Position numbers and translations under genes: made by a program. A DNA stretch of 64,000 bases from NCBI RefSeq assembly GCF_900102015.1, contig NZ_FNAT01000003.1, positions 62,001 to 126,000 of the forward strand, written 5' to 3'. This document shows, piece by piece, positions 44,554 through 53,525 of the stretch; within the stretch, counting starts at the first letter, position 1, and each line of letters starts with the position of its first letter. Source of the stretch: Limimaricola pyoseonensis. GTDB lineage: Bacteria > Pseudomonadota > Alphaproteobacteria > Rhodobacterales > Rhodobacteraceae. Below the pieces are notes generated by a model, which saw only the letters and a program-made list of their open reading frames with translations, was not told the origin of the DNA and made no database searches.

Positions 44554-44611
44554 CCCTTGTCCCCGCGCGCGGGGGCCAAGTGCCGCACCCTTGCCAAAAC
44601 GGACCCCTGCA

Positions 44612-45244
44612 ATGCGACTTCTTCCCGGCATCATCGCCATGGCCGCCATCGTGCTGGCCTCCAACATCCTCGTGCAGTTCCTGATCCTCGACGGTCTGCT
44701 GACATGGGGCGCCTTCACCTACCCCTTCGCCTTTCTCGTCACCGACCTGACCAACCGCTTCTACGGCGCGCAGGACGCGCGAAAGGTCGTGCTGGCCGGC
44801 TTCGTAACCGGCATCGCCTGCTCGCTGATCGGCACGCAGGTCATGCTCGAATACGGGCCCGCCGTGACGCTGCGCGTCGCCGTCGCCTCGGCCACCGCCT
44901 TCCTGGTGGCGCAGCTTCTCGACATCGGCGTGTTCGACCGCCTGCGCGAGGGCAGCTGGTGGCGCGCGCCTCTGGTGTCGTCGGTGGCGGGCGCCACGGT
45001 GGACACCGCGCTCTTCTTCTCGATCGCCTTCGCCGGCGTCTTCAACGGCATCGTGCCCGGCGCCGACGCGCATGTGACCTGGGCGCAGGAGGCGGTGCCC
45101 TTCCTGACCGCGGGGCCGCTGGCGCCGCTCTGGGTGTCGCTCGCCGTGGCCGACTGGTGTGTGAAGATCGCCCTCACCTTGATCGCCCTGCTGCCGTTCC
45201 GCCTGATTGTCAGGCTTCGGCAACAATCCCCTTCCGCGGCGTAA
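44612..45244 (+). CDS. yhhQ: Queuosine precursor transporter (YhhQ/DUF165)
   Basis: 210 residues with about six membrane helices. GAFTYPFAFLVTDLTNRFYG near 33-52 carries the family PFxFLVTDLxNxxYG pattern, and SSVAGATVDTALFFSIAF and VADWCVKIALTLIALLPFRL follow. YhhQ-type proteins import preQ0/preQ1 or queuine for tRNA queuosine synthesis. The ATG at 44612 gives the normal length. A weak stem plus TTTTTT at 45254-45259 after the stop may end its transcript. Confidence 0.9.
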   Translation: MRLLPGIIAMAAIVLASNILVQFLILDGLLTWGAFTYPFAFLVTDLTNRFYGAQDARKVVLAGFVTGIACSLIGTQVMLEYGPAVTLRVAVASATAFLVAQLLDIGVFDRLREGSWWRAPLVSSVAGATVDTALFFSIAFAGVFNGIVPGADAHVTWAQEAVPFLTAGPLAPLWVSLAVADWCVKIALTLIALLPFRLIVRLRQQSPSAA

Positions 45245-45262
45245 ACGCACGGATTTTTTCGT

Positions 45263-45291
45263 TTGACGAACGCCCGATCCATGCCAGCTTT
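45263..45291 (+). promoter_or_regulatory. Possible promoter of arfB leader RNA
   Basis: TTGACG (45263-45268), 17-base spacer, AGCTTT (45286-45291). A good -35 and mediocre -10. Transcription from about 45298 would start 28 bases before the short leader ORF. Confidence 0.4.
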
Positions 45292-45325
45292 GGGTCAGGC
45301 GAAACTCAAGAAAGGAGGTGATCCA

Positions 45326-45382
45326 GTGTCGAGAAGGGTATTGGAGAAATGTGTCGGGACAGCTCGGGGGGCGCGCGGCTGA
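45326..45382 (+). CDS. Leader ORF of 18 codons with extreme Shine-Dalgarno
   Basis: GTG start at 45326, TGA at 45380-45382; product MSRRVLEKCVGTARGARG if GTG is read as Met. The SD core GGAGG at 45314-45318 lies 7 bases before the GTG, in an 18-base perfect anti-rRNA match, so initiation should be very strong or ribosomes should be held. The peptide is Arg/Gly-rich and ends ARGARG-stop. No homologue was recognised. Its place before a terminator and a ribosome-rescue gene suggests a regulatory leader peptide. Confidence 0.5.
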   Translation: MSRRVLEKCVGTARGARG

Positions 45383-45450
45383 GGCAGCCCTTGGCCAAGA
45401 GGCACCCCGGGTGGGCCCCGGTCTAACCGACCCACCTCCTTAACTTCGGA

Positions 45451-45481
45451 GGGCCGTTCCCATCGCCGGGAACGGCCCTTT
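45451..45481 (+). terminator. Rho-independent terminator before arfB
   Basis: GGGCCGTTCCC (45451-45461), loop ATCGCC, GGGAACGGCCC (45468-45478), then TTT. A perfect 11-bp stem 44 bases upstream of the arfB ATG, which therefore needs read-through or its own promoter. Confidence 0.85.
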
Positions 45482-45525
45482 CCGTTTGCGCGCCCCGGCG
45501 CTATCTCCCCGGCCGGAGGACCGAC

Positions 45526-45936
45526 ATGCTCAGGATCGACGACCGCATCGCCATCGAGGACTGGGAGCTGACAGAGCAGTTCACCCGCGCCTCCGGGCCC
45601 GGCGGGCAGAACGTCAACAAGGTCAGCACCGCGGTCGAGCTGCGCTTCGAGGCCGAGCGCAGCCCCAATCTGCCCGACCCGGTCAAGCGGCGGCTGAAGC
45701 GGCTCGCCGGGCGGCGCTGGACCACCGACGGGGCGGTGATCATCTTCGTGCAGGACACCCGCCACCAGCCGCGCAACCGCGAGATCGCGCGCGAGCGGCT
45801 GGCCGAGCTGATCCGCAAGGCGACCGAGACGCCGAAACGCCGCATCCCGACCAAGCCCACCAAGGGCTCGGTCCGGCGGCGTTTGGAGGCGAAGAAGCAG
45901 CGCGGCGAGGTCAAGGCGCTGCGCAAGAACCCCTAG
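45526..45936 (+). CDS. arfB: Alternative ribosome-rescue factor / peptidyl-tRNA hydrolase ArfB
   Basis: 136 residues. SGPGGQNVNKVSTAVELRF near 24-42 holds the GGQ motif that hydrolyses peptidyl-tRNA, as in class I release factors. The C-terminal third is a basic tail (KRRIPTKPTKGSVRRRLEAK, ending KALRKNP) that enters the empty mRNA channel of stalled ribosomes. This is ArfB/YaeJ rather than a true RF, which would be longer. GGAGG precedes the ATG. The upstream leader with strong SD, short ORF and terminator may control it. Confidence 0.94.
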   Translation: MLRIDDRIAIEDWELTEQFTRASGPGGQNVNKVSTAVELRFEAERSPNLPDPVKRRLKRLAGRRWTTDGAVIIFVQDTRHQPRNREIARERLAELIRKATETPKRRIPTKPTKGSVRRRLEAKKQRGEVKALRKNP

Positions 45937-53462: not shown

Positions 53463-53525
53463 TGCTGGTATCCTTGCAGATATGCGCCCCTCGTTGGGGA
53501 GGGGTGTCCCGCCGCCGGACATACG
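53463..53525 (-). ncRNA. Candidate serC leader RNA element
   Basis: Immediately upstream of serC on the minus strand, CCCCTC/GAGGGG (53499-53504 with 53487-53492) forms a compact hairpin, followed by AAGGA and the ATG. A GTCCGGCGGCGGGAC arm lies just 5' of it. A conserved serC RNA motif of alphaproteobacteria is known at exactly this position; the resemblance is by location and compact hairpin, and family membership was not tested. Confidence 0.5.

Follow-up and report, generated by a model that had tools for sequence, protein, structure and literature searches.

CC2171 (Rfam RF01867) is the described RNA family closest to the element analyzed here, and Landt et al. (2008) is reportedly its source report. 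In the papers searched, CC2171 appears as an Rfam entry with a revised structure (PMC11701678) and, in Mesorhizobium, as a predicted sRNA (PMC5596092). The literature searched, which included the accessible portions of PMC4117421, PMC5521070, and PMC5082802 and had subscription papers (the original report among them) mostly outside its scope, yielded no functional account of this family. Three further systems share individual traits with the locus: the anti-Shine-Dalgarno small RNAs SisA to SisD of Caulobacter, which carry an anti-SD motif (PMC12559287); rnTrpL of Sinorhizobium, a short dual-function RNA in which a small ORF is combined with a terminator (PMC10117765); and the extended SD sites and leader peptides of Staphylococcus aureus, in which long SD pairing lies near the start codon, also at small ORFs (PMC13009471).

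The element described herein lies in a 64,000-nucleotide stretch of Limimaricola pyoseonensis DNA, which is referred to as the window. With CC2171 of Caulobacter it shares a near-identical GAAAGGAGGUGAUCCAGUGUC start segment and a terminator-like 3' hairpin, whereas the encoded peptide differs and the mimic of the 16S rRNA tail is placed elsewhere. At curated thresholds, Rfam reported nothing at the element. A sensitive scan aligned positions 1-159 of 159 of RF01867 with 45302-45478 at 43.1 bits (E 6e-8), which is below the Rfam gathering cut-off of 75 bits. The SD/start segment and the terminator stem align well, and the middle is unaligned; the pair CAUUGUC/GACAAUG of the Rfam structure, which belongs to this unaligned part of the model, is absent in the window, where GTCGG:CCGAC and a SD helix are found instead. 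Much of the score is generic, because the terminator stem alone yields 25.2 bits (E 0.0015) against RF01867 on the opposite strand. We regard the element as a real, conserved, and little described RNA and as a divergent relative of CC2171. Elsewhere in the window, a serC leader (RF00517) is found at 53463-53514 on the - strand with 71.5 bits.

An earlier note on this DNA, made from the letters alone, had pointed to an 18-base SD match, an ORF, an anti-SD copy, a terminator stem, a GGAGG, and arfB, and each of these was found where it had been placed. The features of the locus are as follows (R1 is our covariance model).

44609 to 45244, + strand: queuosine precursor transporter gene (start putative), upstream neighbor (TIGR00697, 96.6 bits, cut-off 50.95)
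45263 to 45268, + strand: TTGACG, candidate -35 hexamer of an own promoter (TTGACA-like in relatives)
45298 to 45487, + strand: small RNA gene, probable 5' end (RF01867 match 45302-45478; R1 model 152 bits, the window copy itself being in the R1 training set)
45309 to 45326, + strand: anti-16S element and Shine-Dalgarno sequence (16S-tail complement; GGAGGTG in 142/142 copies)
45311 to 45320, + strand: conserved core AAAGGAGGTG of the anti-16S element
45322 to 45345, + strand: start-codon hairpin TCCAGTGTC / GGTATTGGA (helix 2, pairing in 142 copies)
45326 to 45382, + strand: 18-codon ORF with GTG start and TGA stop (coding 45326-45379, TGA 45380-45382)
45353 to 45357, + strand: GTCGG, pairs with CCGAC at 45427-45431 (helix 3)
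45379 to 45394, + strand: stop-codon hairpin CTGAGG / CCTTGG (helix 4)
45427 to 45431, + strand: CCGAC, partner of GTCGG (helix 3)
45433 to 45441, + strand: anti-SD copy CACCTCCTT, pairs with 45312-45320 (7-bp partner conservation)
45451 to 45487, + strand: terminator stem of 11 bp (45451-45461 with 45468-45478) and weak T tract TTTCCGTTT (helix 5)
45526 to 45936, + strand: arfB, a ribosome-rescue gene, downstream neighbor, outside the RNA (NCBIfam ArfB NF006718, 186.2 bits, cut-off 100)

Over all of its 18 bases, the sequence AGAAAGGAGGTGATCCAG (45309-45326) is perfectly complementary to the 16S 3' end as read in relatives, and its last base (45326) is the G of the GTG start codon. The match holds against relatives, because the 16S genes of four of them (two from the same family and two from the same class) end in CTGGATCACCTCCTTTCT; a search of the window's own assembly gave no RF00177 match for 16S, and the same search missed 5 of 14 control genomes. 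An 18-base complement is expected by chance about 2e-6 times per window and 1e-4 times per genome, and the second-best anti-16S site within the window matches 14 of 18 bases. In the whole assembly AAGGAGGTGATCCA occurs twice, the second place having no start codon after it. A 16S fragment was rejected as an explanation, as the loci with the word (L004-L180) lack the adjacent 16S 1492-region and an Rfam search of 15 loci showed no rRNA.

The element was found by BLAST in 158 of 198 family genomes. The R1 covariance model, which was built from 50 copies and run on the same 198 genomes that supplied most of them, placed it in 179 of the 198 (157 of 174 good genomes) and gave no match in 19; the SD match, the ORF, and the anti-SD copy are conserved in relatives. 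An RF01867 search of the class matched 85 of 385 genomes at E ≤ 0.001, 13 of them above its cut-off, and gave a single match, in Caulobacter vibrioides, among 14 named control genomes. R1 recovers 27 of 30 RF01867 loci in place at E ≤ 0.01, and 15 of these 27 beat the best wrong-strand terminator match (5.1e-4). The exact SD/start word is present in 40 of 398 phylum genomes, all 40 within the class, and a looser word in 59 of 289 class genomes at 60 places; one of the 59 (G209) has two copies, 2.1 Mb apart. Among the matches listed there were none for the reversed exact and looser words. These words are no test of the start codon, because the start codon is part of them.

For comparative analysis, 142 copies were assembled: family genomes supplied 102, and the other 40 are from named contigs that had been selected for an exact SD word. 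Loci represent 110 (30 + 80) of the 158 genomes with a BLAST match. Near-identical copies were merged, four BLAST loci without a SD word within 4 substitutions (L031, L245, L250, and L254) were left out, and one step kept 107 of 143 copies under a strict terminator pattern. Also left out was L257, in which the SD is damaged (AAAGGGTGTG) and a stop follows right behind the start codon, possibly a decay of the whole unit. Both GGAGGTG and the GTG start occur in 142 of 142 copies, an invariance that is conditional because the 40 named contigs were picked by an exact SD word. In the family-genome copies GGAGGTG is present in 102 of 102, and the long complement GAAAGGAGGTGATCCAG (17 bases) is exact in only 54 of 102.

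The ORF, which encodes VSRRVLEKCVGTARGARG in the window, is exactly 18 codons long in 135 of 142 copies (95/102 from family genomes and 40/40 from named contigs). The stop codons of the 18-codon ORFs are TGA (55), TAG (53), and TAA (27), with TGG in none (with relatedness ignored, Fisher p for the two stop columns is 2e-17). These columns are also paired within a hairpin, where G-C, A-U, and G-U pairs are all seen, so TGG would not be ruled out by structure alone. At conserved residues the codons are nearly fixed (AGA for 125 of 125 Arg, GAG for 141 of 141 Glu, ACA for 138 of 139 Thr), and residue changes are found at codons 4, 5, and 13-18. The comparison indicates that the start and the stop of the ORF are under selection, with translation being putative. 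Since start, length, and stop are kept and the peptide only partly, the pattern points to the passage of a ribosome on a structured RNA.

In single folds, the predicted partner of the SD lies more than 70 nt downstream (p > 0.5) in 141 of 142 copies; for the start codon, the mean predicted pairing probability is 0.88. Folding alone is weak evidence, because sequences with a shuffled middle still gave distant downstream pairing of the SD in 142 of 200 folds, as compared to 50 of 50 for real sequences. The SD partner varies (CACCTCC in 55, CATCTCC in 37, and CGCCTCC in 26 copies) with pairing kept via G-U; a perfect 7-bp partner (G-U allowed) is present in 129 of 142 copies and absent in 13, as compared to 22% of shuffles. 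In the start hairpin, 94.5% of cells are paired in the 142 copies versus 36-47% in slid versions. Across 50 diverse copies, pairing in the five-helix structure extends to 92.1% of cells, two-sided changes are found in 15 pairs, and the covariation score is 0.217, as compared to 37-56% of cells, 6-10 pairs, and 0.06-0.085 for slid versions, and none of 500 shuffles attained any of these measures. Two-sided changes occur in 4 of 5 pairs of helix 3 and in 6 of 7 pairs of helix 5 (99.1% of cells paired); helix 4 has 77.7% of cells paired, with A-U, G-C, and G-U exchanges at the stop columns. The SD helix has one-sided changes only, with the SD side fixed, which would be expected if 16S rRNA constrains that side as well. 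Taken together, the covariation supports a predicted fold that buries the SD, the start codon, and the stop codon. By eye, the conserved apex of the stop hairpin, GGCAGCCC (45379-45390), looks like the family terminator's 3' arm (GGCGGCCC), so that pairing with the terminator 5' arm would be possible.

To open 45309-45326 costs 14.8 kcal/mol, and to open on to +12 costs 19.4 kcal/mol (model values). The modeled duplexes with 16S give -8.7 kcal/mol for GGAGG, -18.9 kcal/mol for GAAAGGAGGTG, -24.7 kcal/mol for GAAAGGAGGTGATC (which adds ATC), and -32.8 kcal/mol for all 18 bases. By these model energies, the SD of the element would be strong enough to open the lock, and a normal SD would be too weak.

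The gene context of the RNA varies. The start of arfB lies at most 450 nt downstream in 120 of 142 copies and 739-1134 nt away in four (L033, L064, L078, and L085); in 17 it was not found in at least 900 nt downstream, and one further contig is too short. Within the sequence examined, the element thus does not always lie upstream of arfB. An EamA transporter gene separates the RNA from arfB in L064 and L078; Pfam lends no support to the intervening ORFs of L033 and L085, and that of L033 overlaps arfB in antisense. A queuosine precursor transporter gene is found upstream in 135 of 142 copies. Within the sequence examined, arfB is adjacent in none of 74 SH-type and none of 10 Bradyrhizobium-type loci, and the neighbors differ in the other orders looked at. 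By gene order, the link to arfB is clade-specific. The gap between the terminator stem and arfB is short (median 50 nt; ≤60 nt in 72 of 108 loci measured), and thus read-through may feed arfB partly in this family.

Upstream of the RNA, TTGACA (≤1 mismatch) occurs within 80 nt in 114 of 142 copies, in 99 of them at -47 to -52 from AAAGG, and a control window farther upstream has a TTGACA-like hexamer in 33 of 86 copies, none at the -47 to -52 positions. This fixed-distance hexamer suggests that the RNA has its own promoter. A consensus scan at the element returned no terminator and no sigma-70 promoter, so a consensus sigma-70 promoter was dropped as a candidate, and the T tract after the terminator stem is poor in the window (TTTCCGTTT). 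From the variable arfB context and the fixed hexamer together, the RNA is most likely its own gene, with expression predicted.

Beyond the window's group, the same SD/start word precedes other ORFs, which read SHCH... in many orders and KRCHLAGIAR in Bradyrhizobium. In Bradyrhizobium-type copies a local hairpin hides the SD and the start in 10 of 10. Only 54 of 74 SH-type copies have a hidden SD (p > 0.5), and CTGGATC-n-GCCTC (≤3 mismatches), which resembles the 16S tail CTGGATCACCTCC and can pair with the anti-16S word, lies in or near the ORF, downstream of the word, in 52 of 74, as compared to 348 of 1480 shuffles. A duplex test gives a weaker result: the duplex with the downstream part beats at least 29 of 30 shuffles in 80 of 142 copies of the window's group, and the corresponding counts are 32 of 74 for the SH type, 3 of 10 for the Bradyrhizobium type, and 2 of 13 for look-alikes from other classes or phyla. 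The mimic lies at three different sites in the window's group, Bradyrhizobium, and the SH-type lineages, which argues for selection on hiding the SD.

Outside the class, AAAGGAGGTGATCCAGTG was seen in at least 13 among 117 stretches listed, each time followed by a short ORF of 9-44 codons and in many cases also by a hairpin and a T run. These look-alikes are found in Planctomycetota (L073, L074, L076, L082, L133, and L172), in L081, L120, L151, and L122, and in Lujinxingiaceae, Myxococcales, and Deltaproteobacteria (L102, L115, and L144). The three from Phycisphaerae (L073, L076, and L133) all have CTCGACGG after the stop, and both L102 and L115 have TAGEVV(R/H)F at the end of the ORF. R1 gave 3 weak matches at E ≤ 0.01 against the 13. 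They are possibly similar units in other phyla.

Based on these results, our preferred reading, to which we assign a probability of roughly 0.55, is that the element is an independent small-RNA gene, related to CC2171, with a self-locked 18-codon mini-ORF that would be opened by pairing of the 30S subunit along the 16S tail. In the closed form, for which the comparison provides the pairing potential, the SD would be paired with the internal copy of the 16S tail, and the start and stop codons would lie in hairpins. An ordinary SD would be too weak for this lock and pairing with a free 16S tail strong enough, which would leave the RNA poised between the closed form and a 30S-bound, translated form. 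The open form most likely would bare the anti-SD copy for base-pairing or alter the stability of the RNA, which would thereby report ribosome availability; in this family, read-through that reaches arfB may have been added on. The ribosome-responsive RNA of the earlier note is a good reading insofar as the strong SD, the ORF, the anti-SD copy, and their pairing show conservation and seem to be under selection. The switch that it had placed at the terminator was not conserved: the GGAGG beside the terminator, at 45448-45452 in the window, occurs in only 7 of the 136 copies scored, and CCTCC:GGAGG antitermination was rejected. Compared with an arfB leader, the alternative that it had offered, an independent small RNA, is the better fit, given the likeness to CC2171, the hexamer, and the RNA's own terminator stem.

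A trans-acting small RNA, in which the CCACCTCC seed blocks the ribosome-binding sites of target mRNAs and the ORF gates its exposure, is rather unlikely in our estimate. The anti-SD stretch is present in most copies, and the Caulobacter SisA to SisD RNAs are described as working via a 10-mer with an anti-SD signature (PMC12559287). However, the predicted pairing of the stretch with the SD in 141 of 142 copies would leave no exposed CCTCC seed in the free RNA, and the variants of the stretch track pairing with the RNA's own SD. Exposure of the seed after 30S binding is possible, and here the trans-acting alternative overlaps with the mini-ORF opened by the 30S subunit. We consider it improbable that the element is a cis leader in which the state of the ORF sets read-through into arfB. 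The nearness of arfB in 120 of 142 copies, the median gap of 50 nt, and the weak T tract in the window are what such a leader would look like, but arfB is farther away in four copies and was not found in 17, the EamA gene intervenes in L064 and L078, other neighbors are present in other orders, a conserved GGAGG antiterminator is lacking (7/136), and the stop codon lies about 70 nt ahead of the terminator stem. As a general function, the arfB leader was rejected on its placement.

The 18-base pairing of -32.8 kcal/mol, which reaches the start codon, would also suit a decoy or buffer that holds 30S subunits by its long anti-16S element and so lowers or stores initiation capacity. A pure decoy has no need of an exact ORF length and a kept stop, and the complement is shorter in about half of the family copies; we judge this explanation improbable as well. 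A small mRNA whose 18-residue product is under selection would account for the conserved start, stop, and several residues, but the nearly fixed codons at conserved residues, the variation at codons 4, 5, and 13-18, and the other peptides encoded by related RNAs of other orders make it very improbable, and a conserved functional peptide was rejected as weak. Complementarity to the 16S 3' end might further be read as an antisense guide for the 3' end of pre-16S rRNA. Such a guide is scarcely credible, given that the match stops at the mature end and does not extend into the precursor AAGGA, and that the element stands at SD distance from the start codon in every copy examined.

The self-locked mini-ORF could be part of something wider. 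We put forward tentatively, and with some doubt, that this is a widely kept alphaproteobacterial RNA that gauges the free 30S subunits, or the condition of the 16S 3' end, through a competition in which the real 16S tail and the built-in mimic would compete for one anti-16S element, the SD of the mini-ORF. The look-alikes from Planctomycetota, Myxococcales, and other groups suggest an older design or one with more than one origin. For an Rfam-listed family for which no function was found, the analysis adds a near-complete complement of the 16S tail, a strict mini-ORF, and an internal 16S mimic, and it gives a concrete and testable idea, ribosome sensing by competition for the 16S tail, in bacteria that are harmless and amenable to culture and editing. 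Such sensing could explain why the element is retained in about nine in ten of the family genomes sampled.

The same features set the RNA apart from the known systems. Unlike in SisA to SisD (PMC12559287), the anti-SD motif of the window RNA is predicted to be paired with its own SD and is accompanied by a conserved ORF. In contrast to rnTrpL, which is leaderless (PMC10117765), the element has no biosynthetic gene and no run of regulatory codons, and the peptide is not its conserved part. Lastly, the extended SD of Staphylococcus aureus is a general feature of mRNAs (PMC13009471), whereas the type found in the window is one site per genome that is combined with a mimic of the 16S tail.
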